Origin: Rhodospirillaceae bacterium
Lineage (GTDB): Bacteria; Pseudomonadota; Alphaproteobacteria; GCA-2746255
Assembly (NCBI GenBank): GCA_002746255.1
Contig: NVWO01000008.1
Span: 47,342-86,990, forward strand
DNA: 39,649 nt
Direction of reading: 5' to 3'
How positions within the stretch are numbered: position 1 is the stretch's first letter; every line of letters starts with the position of its first letter. The notes under the pieces were generated by a model. The model ran no database searches and was not told where the DNA came from. It was given only the letters and a program-made list of their open reading frames with translations. A program made the position numbers and the translations under genes. Shown one piece after another: positions 19,389 through 26,684 of the stretch.

Positions 19389-22300
19389 ATGGACAAAAAA
19401 AATAAAAAAAGAATCCTTTACGGTATTTTTGCCGCTGTTTTTTCTCTGATTTTTCTTGCGTTGATTGTTCCAAGTTTCATTGATGCGAATCAGTACAAGA
19501 ACCTCATTGCGGACGAGGTGCGTTCCGCGACGGGCCGCGCGCTTACCATTGAAGGCGATATTGATCTTACGATTCTTCCGGCACCAGCTGTCTCCATTTA
19601 CAAAATAAAATTTGCCAATCTTGAAGGGGGCGCCAGTCCCGATATGGCGCAGATTGCGGTCCTTCGCGTGCGCATTGCGCTTTTTCCTCTTTTTACCGGT
19701 CGCATCCAGGTTGAGAGCATTTCGGTGATCGATCCGGTCATTGCGTTGGAAAAATTGGCCGATGGCCGTGTGAATTGGGAGTTTGCACCGCAGGCTGGCG
19801 AGGGTGCGGTGGGGCAGGAAGCCACGGCGACATCAACGGCGGCGCCAACAGAGAAAACAGCGGATACGGGTGCGGCTGCAAACGCAATCCAGATCGATCA
19901 ATTTACGATTGAAAATGGCACGCTTATTTACCGGGATGCGAAATCGGGTGTGCTTGAGCGCATCGAAAAGTTCAATGCGACCATTCGTGCAAAATCGCTT
20001 GTTGGACCGTTCCATGTGGATGGTGGCCTCGTTGTGCGTGGCATGCCGCTCTCGCTTCGTCTTGGCACGGGGCGTCTTGTCGAAGGGCCGGGCACGCCGA
20101 TTAATCTAGAGATTGCTATTGAGGATGGGGCCGGGGGTGCGACGCTTGCTTTTTCTGGAACGCTTTCATCGCCCAATCCGATGGGGGTGCTTACCGGGAC
20201 GTTGATGGCAAAAAGCGAGAACCTTGCCGCCGTAATCGGCAGGTTTGGCGTTGCGCGAAATGCGCCTTTGCCGGGGTTTGTTGCCCAGGAATTTTCCTAT
20301 GAATCGTTGCTTGTCGCATCCGCCAGTAATTTTGAGCTTCGGGAAATCATGCTCGGTTTCGGCGATGCCACGGCCAAAGGTGGCGTGAAGCTGCGCCTTG
20401 GAAAAACCGTCGATGCCGAGGTGAACGTCCAGGCCACGACAATTGATTTTGACCGTTGGCTGGCGATGAAACCTCAGGACGCGCGCGAAAGGGAAACGGT
20501 GACGGAAACGGTTTTGCCGCGTGGTGCCGGTGCCCCTTCCCAGGCGGCCAGGAAAAAGGACGCAGAAAAAACCGCCTTCGTGCTTCCAAAGGATATCAAC
20601 GCTTCTTTCAATTTCGCCGTTGATTCAATCCTTTTCAACGGTGCGGCGATACGAAAGGCACATATCTATGCGTCACTTGGCGATGGCGAACTCACCATCG
20701 ATCAGGCAACGGCGCAATTTCCGGGGGGCGCCAGCCTTTCGATGTTTGGTTTTGTGTCTGCCGTAAAAGACGCGCCACATTTCGAGGGGGATCTGGATTT
20801 CCGTTCGGAAAATCTGCGCAGTCTCCTCAATTGGTTGCGGGTAGATATTGCTGACGTGCCTGCGAACCGCATGCGAGGGGCGTCGCTGACGGCAAAGCTT
20901 GCGGTGACTCCGGCGCGCGTGACTCTCAAAAAACTAAAGTTGAAACTTGATGAATCCCAGATGACGGGCACGCTTTCCATGGCGTTTTCGGGGCGGCCGG
21001 ACGTGCGCGGCAATCTGTCCCTGAACCGGCTGAACCTGGATGCCTATCTTGGAAAAGAAAAGAAACTTTCCCGCACGAGCACACGTGCCGCAGGCGCGAA
21101 GGCTACAGGTGCGAAGGCTGTGGCTGCGACCCCTGCCAAAAAATCTTCCGGGGGGTCGGGCAAAGAAAAGGAGGCGTTATCGGCCTTGAAAGGGTTGGAA
21201 GATTTCGATGCCGATCTTTCTTTTTCACTGGATCGGCTTGTTTTCCAGAAACAGGCAATCTCCGGCATTCGTTTAAGCGGCGCGCTTGCGAAGGGGGTGC
21301 TGACGCTTCGTGATGCCAGCGTTCGGGATCTTGCCGGCACGCGGGCGAAACTCTCCGGCCGTGCGAGTAAATTTTCCGACACGCCGCAATTCGATGTTCA
21401 TCTGGATCTTCGCTCAAAAGATGTGAGCCGACTGTTTCGCCTGACTGGCGATGCGCCGCCCCCGGCAGCAGAAAAACTTGGTGCGACAACCCTGAAGGCC
21501 CGGCTCACGGGCGGGCTTAATCGTTTGAAAATCACCGCTGATCTTGGCGTCGCAAAAGGCTTTGTACGCGTCAGCGGGGATGTTGGAAATTTGCTGGAAG
21601 CGCCGGATTTCAACCTTCACCTTGCGGTTGAACATAAAAACCTTGTCTCGCTTTTGCAGGTTTTCGACTATCGGCCAAAATCGGCAAAGCTGGGGGCGCT
21701 TTCCCTGAAGGCGCGGATGGAGGGAACGGCTGCCTCCGTGGCTTTTTCAGGGATTGATGGCCGCATCGGGCCTGTAAAAATTGCCGGGAAAATGGGGGCC
21801 AGGCTCGACGGGCCGCGACCGGTGATTACGGCCCGGCTTGAGGCCGGGGAAATTCCGGTGCATCGCTTCCTTCCGGCGGCGCGCACGCGCGCCGCTTCGT
21901 CTGCCGTTCCACGAAAGGGCGGGCCCGCTCCCCGTCAAGGTGGAAAAGGCAGTGCCTCGCATTGGTCAAAGGCACCGCTTGACCTTTCCGGTCTTCGCCT
22001 TGTCGACGCGACGATCGATCTGTCGGCGGCGGTCCTTGTCTACGACAACCTTCGCGTTAAAAATCCGCGCCTGGGCGTCGCGCTTAAGGACGGTGTGCTT
22101 GAACTCAGCAAGCTTTCCGGAAGTCTTTTTGGCGGCACGTTTGATGCGATGGCAAGCCTTGCGGATCACAAGCCTGCGACAGTGAACGGCAAGCTTGTTG
22201 TGCGCGGCGCGAACATTAAAAAAGCGTTGTTTGCCTCTTCCGGTTTCGACCTGGGCGATGGCAATCTGGATTTCGATGTGGATCTGAAGGCATCGGGGAA

Positions 22301-22883
22301 CAGCGAGCATGCCCTTGTTTCCGCTCTTCATGGCCTGGCGGACCTTCGCGTTAAAGATGGCGTCGCCAAGGGGTTTGATCTCGACGCGGTAAGTGCGCGG
22401 CTAAACAATCTGAACAGCCCGGCTGCCTTTCTCGGCCTTCTGGATTCGGCCCTTTCCGGGGGCGAGACGCGGTTTCAGGAATTGCGTGGCAAGGTCCGGG
22501 TCGCAAACGGCATCGCCAAGATGGAAGACATGCGCATGCAGGCGAAATCCGGCACCGCCGATCTTTCCGGAAAGGTGGACCTTCCGAACTGGAACATGGA
22601 CCTGCGGGCGGATTTCCATCTTGCTTCCGAGCCGGGCGCGCCGGTCTTTGCGATGCTTTTGAGGGGTCCGCTGGACGCACCGCATCGCCGTTTCGATACG
22701 AAGCAGTTCCAGAACCATCTCCTTAAAAAGGGCGTTGGCAGCCTGTTAAAAAAGATATTGCCGTTCAAGAAGAAAACGCCAGAGGCATCCACAAACGGCG
22801 AAACGGAAGGTGGCAAGGAAACAGCACCGCTGCCGGATCCGGAAAAAATCATCAAGGATCTCTTTAAGGGCTTTGGGTTCTAA
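19389..22883 (+). CDS. AsmA-family protein
   Basis: Large inner-membrane-anchored protein of 1164 residues. AsmA relatives are implicated in outer-membrane biogenesis and phospholipid transport between the membranes. A basic N-terminus and one transmembrane anchor (about 8-28) are followed by the AsmA hallmark SFIDANQYKNLIADEVRSAT and GRALTIEGDIDLTILPAP. The rest is mostly periplasmic beta-repeat sequence with two Ala/Pro/Lys-rich linkers (near residues 565-600 and 830-860). A C-terminal AsmA-like domain (SGLRLVDATIDLSAAVLVYD, FDVDLKASGNSEHALVSALH) precedes a Lys-rich tail. Its stop overlaps the stop of the convergent ribbon-helix-helix gene. Confidence 0.88.
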   Translation: MDKKNKKRILYGIFAAVFSLIFLALIVPSFIDANQYKNLIADEVRSATGRALTIEGDIDLTILPAPAVSIYKIKFANLEGGASPDMAQIAVLRVRIALFPLFTGRIQVESISVIDPVIALEKLADGRVNWEFAPQAGEGAVGQEATATSTAAPTEKTADTGAAANAIQIDQFTIENGTLIYRDAKSGVLERIEKFNATIRAKSLVGPFHVDGGLVVRGMPLSLRLGTGRLVEGPGTPINLEIAIEDGAGGATLAFSGTLSSPNPMGVLTGTLMAKSENLAAVIGRFGVARNAPLPGFVAQEFSYESLLVASASNFELREIMLGFGDATAKGGVKLRLGKTVDAEVNVQATTIDFDRWLAMKPQDARERETVTETVLPRGAGAPSQAARKKDAEKTAFVLPKDINASFNFAVDSILFNGAAIRKAHIYASLGDGELTIDQATAQFPGGASLSMFGFVSAVKDAPHFEGDLDFRSENLRSLLNWLRVDIADVPANRMRGASLTAKLAVTPARVTLKKLKLKLDESQMTGTLSMAFSGRPDVRGNLSLNRLNLDAYLGKEKKLSRTSTRAAGAKATGAKAVAATPAKKSSGGSGKEKEALSALKGLEDFDADLSFSLDRLVFQKQAISGIRLSGALAKGVLTLRDASVRDLAGTRAKLSGRASKFSDTPQFDVHLDLRSKDVSRLFRLTGDAPPPAAEKLGATTLKARLTGGLNRLKITADLGVAKGFVRVSGDVGNLLEAPDFNLHLAVEHKNLVSLLQVFDYRPKSAKLGALSLKARMEGTAASVAFSGIDGRIGPVKIAGKMGARLDGPRPVITARLEAGEIPVHRFLPAARTRAASSAVPRKGGPAPRQGGKGSASHWSKAPLDLSGLRLVDATIDLSAAVLVYDNLRVKNPRLGVALKDGVLELSKLSGSLFGGTFDAMASLADHKPATVNGKLVVRGANIKKALFASSGFDLGDGNLDFDVDLKASGNSEHALVSALHGLADLRVKDGVAKGFDLDAVSARLNNLNSPAAFLGLLDSALSGGETRFQELRGKVRVANGIAKMEDMRMQAKSGTADLSGKVDLPNWNMDLRADFHLASEPGAPVFAMLLRGPLDAPHRRFDTKQFQNHLLKKGVGSLLKKILPFKKKTPEASTNGETEGGKETAPLPDPEKIIKDLFKGFGF

Positions 22884-23155
22884 GGCAGGTCGGTTTTGCC
22901 GTCGGGTTTGCGATCCTGTGCCGCGCGCTCTCGAAACGTCTGCAGAATATGAATGCGAATTGCGCTTGAGAGATTGCTCGGGTTTTCTCGGTCAATTTCC
23001 GTGACGAGGTGATTGATCGAGATGCGGCGCTCTGCCGCCAGTTCGGCCAGGGTTTCCCAGAAAATTTTCTCAAGCGAGACGCTTGTCCGATGCCCCGACA
23101 CGATTACGGAGCGTTTGCGAATTGGATGCATGTCGGTGGCTTCCTTGGCCATCAT
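22880..23155 (-). CDS. Ribbon-helix-helix domain protein
   Basis: A 91-residue protein with a ribbon-helix-helix_4-like core: SVIVSGHRTSVSLEKIFWET, LAELAAERRISINHLVTEID, LSSAIRIHILQTF. Proteins of this family are presumed DNA-binding, but the target is unknown. The ATG at 23155 overlaps the TfoX-like gene stop as ATGA, implying translational coupling; an in-frame ATG follows directly and another is at 23131. The stop TAG (22880-22882) overlaps the AsmA stop TAA (22881-22883) on the other strand. Confidence 0.82.
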   Translation of the reverse strand: MMAKEATDMHPIRKRSVIVSGHRTSVSLEKIFWETLAELAAERRISINHLVTEIDRENPSNLSSAIRIHILQTFRERAAQDRKPDGKTDLP

Positions 23156-23538
23156 TGCCTTTTTTCCGCTGTACCTGCTGCCGATTTCCGTTTCCCTTTC
23201 TTTGGGCGTTTGGCGCGAAGTGCCACCGCAAAAGCCTTGTGTGCCCACGCGCAAAGTGCTTCCGGATCCTCCATGATGTCGGCGGGAACCTCAAAATAGG
23301 AAATCGTCATGCGGGGGTCCTTGTCGAAGGCCTGGATCGAATGGTGAATGCCATGGGCGTGGAAATCTTCACGGTTCCCATCGTCCACTTTCAGATAAAG
23401 GGTGTCGTCAAAAAGGAGGGCAAACGGAAATCCATCCCTATAAATGCAATGGCCGCCAAACATGCGGCGCTGGGAAAGCGGTCCAAGCGGCTTTAACAAA
23501 TCAAAGATATAATCAATAAATTCTGAGCTTGCAGGCAC
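23152..23538 (-). CDS. TfoX/Sxy N-terminal domain protein
   Basis: The 128-residue product matches the TfoX N-terminal domain: FIDYIFDLLKPLGPLSQRRM, FGGHCIYRDGFPFALLFDDT, LYLKVDDGNREDF, MTISYFEVPADIMEDPEAL. A Lys/Arg-rich tail follows (AKRPKKGKRKS). In gammaproteobacteria Sxy/TfoX promotes competence genes with CRP, but stand-alone N-domain proteins in alphaproteobacteria have no established role. The start is GTG at 23538 with a weak ribosome-binding site. It is coupled to the downstream ribbon-helix-helix gene. Confidence 0.85.
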   Translation of the reverse strand: MPASSEFIDYIFDLLKPLGPLSQRRMFGGHCIYRDGFPFALLFDDTLYLKVDDGNREDFHAHGIHHSIQAFDKDPRMTISYFEVPADIMEDPEALCAWAHKAFAVALRAKRPKKGKRKSAAGTAEKRQ

Positions 23539-23598
23539 GGAACGAATTTCACTTTGTCGTGGGTTGTTGAATTCGTCTGGATGGCAGCATTCAGAGGC

Positions 23599-24123
23599 TT
23601 ATTTTTTGCGGAAGCTATCCAATGGGATCACTTCTGCGGTGGTGTCGTCCTTGGTTTGATCCGCCGCGGTTTCGGTTGCCGCTTTTTTCTGGATAGCCGT
23701 TGCAGGCTGTGGCCGAGACGAGGCGTCCTGCAAGGGCGTTGCGGCACTTTCCGATTCCTTGTCGCCACGGCATTGCAGGCCGAAACGTACGGAAGGATCG
23801 ACGAAGCTGGTGATTGCCGCGAAAGGTACGATCAGCTTTTCCTGAAGATTGTTGAAGCTGAGCGTGACCTCAAACAGGCTGTCTGTGATGTTTAAATCCC
23901 AAAACTGATTTTGGAGGACAATCGTCATTTCGTCCGGGTAACGGGTTCGCAGGCTGTCTGGAATGTTGACGCCGGCATGGGTTGTCCGGAACGAAATATA
24001 AAAATGACGACCGCCAAGAAGGCCCTCTTTGGCAATTTGGGTCAGAACCGTTTGAACCAGCTGGCGCAGCGTATCCTCATAAAGACGGTCGTAGTCCATG
24101 TCGCTGTTCATGTGCCCCATCAT
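23599..24123 (-). CDS. sspB: Alpha-type SspB, ClpXP adaptor for ssrA-tagged proteins
   Basis: The 174-residue product matches the alphaproteobacterial SspB family: YDRLYEDTLRQLVQTVLTQI, GGRHFYISFRTTHAGVNIPD, YPDEMTIVLQNQFWDLNITD, FEVTLSFNNLQEKLIVPFAA, ITSFVDPSVRFGL. A flexible Ala/Thr-rich linker follows and the C-terminus is EVIPLDSFRKK, the kind of tail that docks on the ClpX N-domain. SspB binds the tmRNA-encoded degron and the ClpX hexamer. The start is uncertain among ATGs at 24123, 24120 and 24111; the last has GGGG just upstream. The gene lies just downstream of ssrA on the same strand. Confidence 0.92.
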   Translation of the reverse strand: MMGHMNSDMDYDRLYEDTLRQLVQTVLTQIAKEGLLGGRHFYISFRTTHAGVNIPDSLRTRYPDEMTIVLQNQFWDLNITDSLFEVTLSFNNLQEKLIVPFAAITSFVDPSVRFGLQCRGDKESESAATPLQDASSRPQPATAIQKKAATETAADQTKDDTTAEVIPLDSFRKK

Positions 24124-24163
24124 TTTTTCCGGCGGTCCATTTCGCCGGTGTTGCGAACTGCAG

Positions 24164-24203
24164 GCGGTGGGGGGCTTCTGTTGCCCGGTGCCCCCCGGAC
24201 CGC
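24164..24203 (-). other. Strong inverted repeat between ssrA and sspB
   Basis: GCGGT (24164-24168) pairs with ACCGC (24199-24203) and GGGGGGC (24169-24175) with GCCCCCC (24190-24196), with two unpaired bases on one side and a 14-base loop. No T tract follows on the minus strand, so it is not a classic intrinsic terminator. It may mark the 3' end or processing site of the tmRNA coding piece, or be a weak terminator partly allowing read-through into sspB. Confidence 0.65.
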
Positions 24204-24470
24204 GCTTGCTTATTTAAGCAGCGAGTGCATAACGATTGTTGTCATTGGCACTTATAAAACGACCCGATAACGGTGGTATCATACCGAGCAAAAATTAAGC
24301 CTTTACCACGCGCGTCGATCCTGTTTCGCCCCCATAAGCCCCGCTTGTCCCCTGTTGAAAATGACCCAAGGTCTGCGGGTGTAAAAAATATGGTGGAGGC
24401 GCCGGGTACTGCCCCCGGGTCCGCTACGCCTATTTCACTTAATGTTTATCGCCATAGTCGGAAAACCGAC
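24204..24470 (-). ncRNA. ssrA: Circularly permuted two-piece tmRNA gene (outer ends approximate)
   Basis: tmRNA rescues stalled ribosomes and tags the unfinished protein. Read on the minus strand, the acceptor piece comes first: a GTCGG-TTTT-CCGAC hairpin (24470-24457), then a T-arm-like CCGGG/CCCGG stem and the 3' end CGCCTCCACCA, with CCA at 24393-24391. A spacer follows. The coding piece begins GGGGGCGAAACAGGATCGAC at 24333, the classic tmRNA 5' start. GGGGGCG pairs with CGCCTCC into a 7-bp acceptor stem whose third pair is G-U, the alanine identity element. The tag frame (24249-24214) is GCC to TAA, encoding ANDNNRYALAA. This acceptor-before-coding order is the alphaproteobacterial permuted form. 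Mature ends beyond CCA and GGGGGCG are estimates. Confidence 0.95.
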
Positions 24471-24476
24471 CCTTTC

Positions 24477-24505
24477 AATATAGGCGCTTCGGGGGGCCAT
24501 GAAAA
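24477..24505 (-). promoter_or_regulatory. Candidate ssrA promoter
   Basis: Minus-strand TTTTCA (24505-24500) and TATATT (24482-24477) are 17 bases apart. Initiation about 7 bases later would fall at the first base of the acceptor-piece hairpin (near 24470). Good -10, moderate -35. Confidence 0.5.
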
Positions 24506-24600
24506 GATGGGCTGTGTCACGTTTTTGGTCTGCCGGAGCGCTGGCGTTGACCAGGGCCAGACGCTAGAGTGCCCGACCGGATAAATGTGTGGAACATGAG

Positions 24601-25545
24601 ATGCCGCTTACGCCCGAACAGCTTCAGGAAATCGAGGCCCTGCGCACGAACCAGAAGCCGACCTGTCGTGCGACGGTCCCCATGCTTGAAGAGGTCCTTT
24701 ACCAGGCCATGCCGGTGCTCGATCACGGCTTTGTCCGGGTTGTGGACTATATGGGGGATGATGGCGCCATCGTTCAGGCGGCCCGGGTTTCCTATGGCAA
24801 GGGAACGCAGAAAACCCGCGAAGATCAGGGGCTTATCAATTATTTGATGCGCCACCGGCACACGACGCCGTTCGAAATGTGCGAAATCAAATACCATATA
24901 AAACTGCCGATTTTCGTCGCCCGGCAGTGGATTCGCCATCGTACGGCCAGCGTGAATGAATATTCCGCCCGTTATTCTATTTTAGATCGGGAGTTCTATA
25001 TTCCGGCCCCGGAACAGCTTGGGATGCAGTCTTCGGACAATCGCCAGGGCCGTGGGGATGTTCTGCAGGGCGAGGAGGCGGAACGGGTTCTGCAACTGTT
25101 ACGCGAAGATTCGGACCGCGCCTATCAGCATTATATGGAAATGCTGAACACCGACGAAGAAGGCAAAATTCTTGACCCAAACCGTTCGGGACTGGCGCGC
25201 GAGCTTGCGCGGATGAATCTCTCCTTAAATTTTTACACCCAGTGGTATTGGAAGACCGATTTGCATAATTTGATGCATTTCCTGTCGTTGCGCGCCGACC
25301 CGCATGCGCAGCATGAAATTCAGGTTTATGCGCAAGTGATGCTTGATACGATGAAACGCTGGGTGCCAATGACGCATTCGGCTTTTCTTCAATACCGCAC
25401 GGGTGGTCTCCATCTTTCGGCGGCGGCGCTTCGCGTCGTTCGTCGCATGTTGGCAGGGGAAAGCGTTACTCAGGAAGAAACGGGGTTGGGCGCCCGCGAA
25501 TGGCGCGAGCTGATGGCGACCCTGAAGGACAGCACAGACGGCTAG
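24601..25545 (+). CDS. thyX: Flavin-dependent thymidylate synthase ThyX
   Basis: Makes dTMP from dUMP using FAD, NADPH and methylene-tetrahydrofolate. The 314-residue product has the ThyX signature [13 protein letters not shown] (112-124), the dUMP/FAD segment [22 protein letters not shown], and the later [20 protein letters not shown] and [20 protein letters not shown] 24601 was chosen; an in-frame GTG at 24589 would add four residues. It is divergent from ssrA and convergent with mrp (11 bp apart). No thyA is in this window. Confidence 0.94.
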
Positions 25546-25556
25546 CAGGCCGCGTC

Positions 25557-26684
25557 TTAATCCCCGGATTCTGCTTGCTGGGTTTTCAGTTTTTCCCAAA
25601 TACGATCGGCAATTTTTCGATAGGCTTTGGCGTGCGGGCCGTCCGGTTCGGCGATGACGATGGGGTTCCCGTCGTCCGCGTGCTGGCGAATGGCAATGGC
25701 CAGCGGAATTTCACCCAGAAAATCCACGTCAAGGCGATGGGCTTCCGCCTTTGCGCCACCCTGATTGAAAATCGGCGTCTGGTGGCCGCAGTGAGGGCAG
25801 GTGAAATTGCTCATGTTCTCGATGATGCCGAGAACCGGCACGTGAACTTTCCTGAACATATTTAGCCCCTTCCGGGCATCGAGAAGGGCAAGGTCTTGCG
25901 GCGTCGAGACGATCACAGCGCCGGTCAGCGGCGCGTTCTGTGCCAGGGTCAACTGGACGTCGCCCGTACCGGGCGGCAGGTCAAGGACGAGAACGTCAAG
26001 CGTCCCCCAGCGAACGTCGCGAAGGATCTGTTCAATCGCGCGCATGACGATTGGACCCCGCCAGATGACGGGTTCGCCCGCCTCGACCAACAAGCCGATG
26101 GACATGCAGGCGATACCGTGATTTTCGATGGGGAGAAGTGTCTTGCCATCGGGGGAATGGGGCTTGCCGGTCAAGCCCATCATGTGCGGAATGGATGGGC
26201 CGAAGACGTCCGTATCCAGGAGGCCAACGCGCAGGCCGTTCGCCTTGAAGGCAAGCGCCAGATTGACGGCGGTCGTTGATTTGCCGACGCCGCCCTTGCC
26301 GGAGGCCACCGCCAGTAATGCGCCCACGCCAGGCACCGGCGCGATCGCTCGCGCACCCTCCGGTGGTGCGCCCTCCGGTGGTGCACCTTCCGGCGGCTGG
26401 CGGGAAGCTTCGGCGCCTGGGGCTGTTTCGGCGGTAAGCACGACGGTTGTTGAAACGATGCCGGGAAGGGCTTGTACGGCTTTTTCGGCTGCCTTACGGA
26501 TCGGTTCGAGTTTTTGTGCCCGGGACGGCGCGACTTCCATGACGATGACGACGTTGCCGTCCTTGTTGATGACGTTCGTCACCAGGCCGCTTGTGACGAT
26601 GTCTTTGCTGCTTTTTGAGCCGTTTGCCGGATCGAGAATTTCTCGAAGGGCGTTTTGAATGTCCGGATGATCTGCAATTGCCAT
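25557..26684 (-). CDS. mrp: Mrp/ApbC-type P-loop ATPase, iron-sulfur cluster carrier
   Basis: Carries and delivers Fe-S clusters. The 375-residue product has an N-terminal DUF59/MIP18-like domain (1-80), a linker with three PPEGA repeats (97-111), and the ParA/MinD-type ATPase. The deviant Walker A is SGKGGVGKSTTAVNLA (GKGGVGKST 129-137), followed by LLDTDVFGPSIPHMMGL, VLVLDLPPGTGDVQLTL and the cluster-ligand motif TCPHC. The ribosome-binding region is AAGAGAG. It is divergent from hflK across 180 bp. Confidence 0.93.
   Translation of the reverse strand: MAIADHPDIQNALREILDPANGSKSSKDIVTSGLVTNVINKDGNVVIVMEVAPSRAQKLEPIRKAAEKAVQALPGIVSTTVVLTAETAPGAEASRQPPEGAPPEGAPPEGARAIAPVPGVGALLAVASGKGGVGKSTTAVNLALAFKANGLRVGLLDTDVFGPSIPHMMGLTGKPHSPDGKTLLPIENHGIACMSIGLLVEAGEPVIWRGPIVMRAIEQILRDVRWGTLDVLVLDLPPGTGDVQLTLAQNAPLTGAVIVSTPQDLALLDARKGLNMFRKVHVPVLGIIENMSNFTCPHCGHQTPIFNQGGAKAEAHRLDVDFLGEIPLAIAIRQHADDGNPIVIAEPDGPHAKAYRKIADRIWEKLKTQQAESGD
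26352..26396 (-). repeat. Three 15-bp tandem repeats coding PPEGA in mrp
   Basis: Three consecutive 15-bp units encode PPEGA-PPEGA-PPEGA (residues 97-111) in the linker between the DUF59 and ATPase domains of Mrp. The units differ at a few third positions. Copy number may vary between strains. Confidence 0.85.

Follow-up and report, generated by a model that had tools for sequence, protein, structure and literature searches.

The permuted tmRNA gene ssrA and the adaptor gene sspB are neighbours in most alphaproteobacterial families sampled and may share a transcript

Introduction

In a 39,649-nt stretch of a Rhodospirillaceae bacterium genome (contig NVWO01000008.1; hereafter the window), ssrA, the permuted gene for the two-piece tmRNA, is followed by sspB, the gene for the adaptor SspB. 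This arrangement raises the question of whether one transcript supplies both the RNA that tags stalled proteins and the adaptor for the tag, and whether the order is peculiar to this genome. In E. coli the gene next to ssrA is smpB, while sspB lies elsewhere, in the sspA-sspB operon. According to the accessible part of a 2007 study, the genes on both sides of tmRNA are conserved in Alphaproteobacteria, and their functional links were deemed uncertain (PMC2245857); that part of the study does not name sspB as a flanking gene. No paper naming an ssrA-sspB linkage was found in a literature search that did not extend to the key SspB paper, Lessner et al. 2007.

The tmRNA gene and its 3' end

The original prediction placed a permuted ssrA and sspB consecutively on the minus strand, and the RF01849 and ARAGORN calls for the one and the PF04386 and PDB matches for the other agree with it (Table 1). 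The RF01849 match covers 24509-24166 on the minus strand at 267.2 bits (threshold 50), with model positions 1-355, the full model length, aligned. ARAGORN called a permuted tmRNA with the tag ANDNNRYALAA. The gene is like those of the RF01849 family, including Caulobacter and S. meliloti ssrA, in its full-length match, the upstream CCTATATT element, a tag of the form ANDN... and the permuted order with an intervening segment. Set beside these relatives, it is marked by its own tag, ANDNNRYALAA, and by the lack of a T-rich tract 3' of the pseudoknot, and is otherwise without notable features. The intervening segment of the permuted precursor is cut away on maturation in the Alphaproteobacteria studied. 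Maturation of the tmRNA into two RNA pieces was shown in S. meliloti (PMC2873474).

A permuted alphaproteobacterial tmRNA was also seen on the Acetobacter persici plasmid pAC1084_1 (2944-3357, 219 bits, tag ANDNRVALAAVA), where it adjoins type I-F CRISPR cas genes and a recombinase gene and has no annotated sspB close by.

The 3' end of ssrA had been put at about 24204, with a strong hairpin between the two genes, but both statements had to be revised. The RF01849 alignment carries the gene to about 24166, and the GGGGGGC/GCCCCCC hairpin is mostly the 3' pseudoknot of the tmRNA, within the model. The spacer is therefore only about 42 nt, or about 54 nt if sspB starts at the in-frame ATG at 24111, which may be the true start, as it matches the start of the congeners in the alignment. 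The sole stem truly within the spacer is CCGGCG/CGCCGG (24148-24143 with 24134-24129). When this stretch was folded alone (z = -1.97), the predicted structure contained the arms of the pseudoknot as well as the small stem. The small hairpin was considered as a conserved regulatory element and rejected, and it is given no role here, because it is missing in three congener loci (L062, L063 and L064, of which L063 and L064 are identical in this region).

Table 1. Features of the ssrA-sspB locus and its flanks, in window coordinates
Feature	Position	Strand	Basis and remarks
RHH_4 (ribbon-helix-helix) gene	22880..23254	-	PF13467 1.2e-22
TfoX N-terminal-domain gene, downstream of sspB	23152..23538	-	PF04993 8.3e-27
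sspB, alphaproteobacterial SspB adaptor, 174 aa	23599..24123	-	PF04386 5.5e-42; PDB 2nys, 2qas, 2qaz
ssrA-sspB spacer, about 42 nt to ATG 24123	24124..24165	-	no promoter-like site; small stem inside
tmRNA coding piece	24166..24333	-	RF01849 alignment
tmRNA 3' pseudoknot stem GGGGGGC/GCCCCCC (24196-24190 with 24175-24169)	24169..24196	-	inverted repeat inside RF01849
Tag reading frame ANDNNRYALAA and stop	24214..24249	-	ARAGORN, sequence
Intervening segment of permuted precursor	24334..24390	-	RF01849 alignment, inserted region
tmRNA acceptor piece with T arm and 3' CCA, the first-encoded part of the permuted gene	24391..24470	-	RF01849 / RF04321 alignment
Sigma-70-like promoter of ssrA, TTTTCA - 17 nt - TATATT	24477..24505	-	consensus scan; expected transcription start about 24471
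thyX, divergent neighbour upstream of ssrA	24589..25545	+	TIGR02170 5.1e-62; start provisional, GTG 24589 being the first start codon following a stop

The SspB adaptor and the tagging pathway

The SspB substrate-binding domain is matched by PF04386 at 143.9 bits over profile positions 3-155 of 156, and the nearest solved structures are 2nys, 2qas and 2qaz. Compared with the alphaproteobacterial SspB proteins of this family and these structures, the window protein shares with them the domain, over 152 residues, and the conserved tail, in which VIPLDSFRKK aligns with the family consensus VVxLDxFRKK; identity with the other aligned proteins is 38-56%, an ordinary divergence. By likeness to E. 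coli SspB, the C-terminal tail is probably the ClpX-binding module. In this genome smpB and clpX are present together with a clpP match that falls slightly below the curated cut-off, so that the tagging-degradation pathway is complete, and the window SspB presumably binds the tag of the window tmRNA and aids degradation by ClpXP.

Distribution of the gene order

A survey of the order in alphaproteobacterial genomes, which the original prediction had proposed, found the same arrangement widely. For this survey, 241 alphaproteobacterial genomes were searched for tmRNA and SspB. The tmRNA loci fetched were the 150 best-scoring matches and one congener, 151 loci in all rather than a full census; SspB was sought in the DNA of these loci, and adjacency was taken as sspB within 300 nt downstream of tmRNA on the same strand. 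The two genes are adjacent at 111 of these 151 loci and, with one genome taken per family, in 57 of 75 families among the matches listed. The best-scoring tmRNA and SspB matches listed overlap in 113 genomes, 84 of which have the SspB domain no more than 300 nt downstream on the same strand; among the matches listed, only two genomes have the genes on one contig yet hundreds of kilobases apart. By ARAGORN alone, a tmRNA lies just upstream in 59 of 80 named SspB loci, including those of Azospirillum, Reyranella, Bradyrhizobium, Methylobacterium, Magnetospirillum, Devosia and a Paracaedibacteraceae MAG. Adjacency of ssrA and sspB is far beyond chance, with the same order in most alphaproteobacterial families sampled; it is the usual alphaproteobacterial order, deeply conserved, and the window is an ordinary instance.

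The SspB gene, and not smpB, is the genomic partner of ssrA in Alphaproteobacteria. In all 38 genomes compared, smpB is at least 409 kb from ssrA or on another contig, and none of the 38 has it near ssrA. The pathway of tag, adaptor and ClpXP is alike in E. coli and the Alphaproteobacteria, whereas the neighbour of the tmRNA gene differs, being smpB in the former and sspB in the latter.

Insertion of a mobile element was considered as the cause of separation at the loci where ssrA and sspB lie apart. This remains unsupported, because none of the ten ORFs between or just downstream of tmRNA at separated loci matched an integrase; their matches were hydrolase, quorum-sensing, histidine-kinase and unknown proteins. 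In some near-complete alphaproteobacterial genomes (e.g. G025, G039, G083, G145 and G226) a tmRNA was matched and SspB was not.

The likeness extends to the flanking genes. The window reads ssrA, sspB, TfoX_N, RHH_4 and a convergent AsmA gene, and S. meliloti (CP090106.1) reads ssrA, a gene for an SspB family protein, DUF4169, RHH and a convergent AsmA gene, so that the order is alike except that TfoX_N replaces DUF4169. The TfoX_N gene comes after sspB in the congeners too. The run of sspB, a small gene, RHH and convergent AsmA is common to S. meliloti and window positions 19389-26684. The window and several relatives have thyX as the divergent gene next upstream of ssrA, whereas in S. meliloti thyX is not beside ssrA and the upstream region holds an annotated thymidylate synthase gene at a distance of about 2.2 kb.

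Promoters and spacers

Upstream of ssrA a promoter pattern, CTT..N17..TATATT, is conserved, and its -10 / CCTATATT element belongs to the RF01849 consensus. TATAT occurs near the ssrA 5' end in 76 of 105 adjacent loci and before sspB in 6 of 105, among the matches listed. Class-wide, the best promoter score near the ssrA 5' end was 7.23 against 5.60 for shuffles (sd 0.18), whereas before sspB it was 4.99 against 4.35 (sd 0.19), slightly above the shuffles. Furthermore, the consensus scan, which has low power and misses many GC-rich alphaproteobacterial promoters, found no sigma-70-like promoter in the window spacer, in keeping with the expectation that sspB has no obvious separate promoter. 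Promoters of unlinked sspB were tried as a positive control for the scan and had no power: linked and unlinked sspB were not separated (p=0.23), and the motif filter misfiled some linked loci as separated. A missing consensus match is for that reason weak evidence.

It has to be asked whether sspB instead has its own promoter, not sigma-70-like, within the 3' region of ssrA or between the two genes, so that adjacency would be inherited synteny with unshared transcription. Such a promoter is unlikely here, but it would fit the low power of the scan and the spacers of many relatives, which are 45 nt or longer in 80 of the 111 adjacent loci among the matches listed and reach nearly 300 nt. The spacer of S. 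meliloti is about 200 nt compared with 42 nt in the window; this leaves room for a separate promoter, so that a shared transcript may not hold class-wide. Against it stand the lack of a promoter-like site in the window spacer and the class-wide scores, which are near shuffle level before sspB and prominent at ssrA. The congener spacers from tmRNA to the sspB start, about 28 and 42 nt, are too short for a separate promoter and leave no room for one outside conserved tmRNA sequence. Read-through from the ssrA promoter is favoured in this lineage because of the promoter signal at ssrA, these short congener spacers, and spacers shorter than 45 nt in 31 of the 111 adjacent loci among the matches listed.

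The T-rich tract after the pseudoknot

The hairpin had been described as lacking a T tract, which is true in the window, although not a rule of the class. Among the 151 tmRNA loci from the matches listed, the 7 nt after the pseudoknot stem contain on average 3.3 T at adjacent loci (background 1.6) and 3.6 T at separated loci (background 1.8). Only one of the seven bases is T in the window genome and in G241, which are among the lowest, whereas the congener G082 has five (ATTTTT), a terminator-like sequence. Loss of the tract was considered as a mark of adjacency and rejected, the T excess being equal in adjacent and separated genomes (p=0.62). A cruder measure, the maximum number of T in 8 consecutive nt, gave a slight difference between adjacent and separated loci (p=0.009), and the T-run measure gave p=0.41.

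The combination of a GC-rich stem and T residues after it looks like an intrinsic terminator, and part of the transcription may therefore end there in many Alphaproteobacteria. A model can be proposed in which the pseudoknot and the T-rich tract form a leaky terminator, most transcripts ending as tmRNA and a minority reaching sspB, which would fix a high ratio of tmRNA to SspB. The T-rich stretch, about 7 nt long, that immediately follows the GC-rich stem across the class would suit this model, as would the sequence of G082, but the tract is missing in the window genome and G241. It is also equal where sspB lies elsewhere, and for that reason may be no more than a mark of the tmRNA 3' end; it may instead serve 3'-end formation of the tmRNA. 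On balance such a terminator is improbable as the explanation of this locus. A broader version is just as doubtful: class-wide, the tmRNA precursor would be the 5' part of the adaptor mRNA, and its pseudoknot and T-rich tail, as a point of leaky termination or of processing, would determine how much tagging RNA there is relative to adaptor, while some lineages, including this one, would have lost the tail and rely on processing alone. Chance adjacency or an annotation artefact is already refuted by the recurrence of the order across the families sampled.

Conclusion

The reading preferred here, with a probability of roughly 0.6, is that the window holds a standard ssrA-sspB locus with one ssrA promoter, read-through into sspB, and processing. 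In this mechanism the single conserved promoter upstream of ssrA would drive the permuted tmRNA precursor, and RNA polymerase would continue across the roughly 42-nt spacer into sspB. RNA processing would then excise the tmRNA pieces and leave an sspB message starting downstream of the 3' pseudoknot. The tmRNA would append (A)ANDNNRYALAA (reporter tag form AANDNNRYALAA) to stalled proteins, and SspB would hand these to ClpXP. Read-through, processing and tag recognition by this SspB are proposed steps. The original prediction of one unit for both products thus stands as the best reading in this genome, where there is a conserved promoter at ssrA, none seen before sspB, a spacer of about 42 nt and no terminator tract, and co-transcription is rather probable; as a general rule it is weakened, since many relatives may partly terminate at the T-rich tract.

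In conclusion, the survey makes the proteolysis adaptor SspB, not SmpB, the genomic partner of tmRNA in Alphaproteobacteria; where the two genes lie closest, the layout is that of a shared promoter. A shared transcript might keep tagging and degradation in step. If co-transcription is true, the link between tagging and delivery would lie at the level of RNA, and processing of the tmRNA would be needed for the adaptor mRNA.
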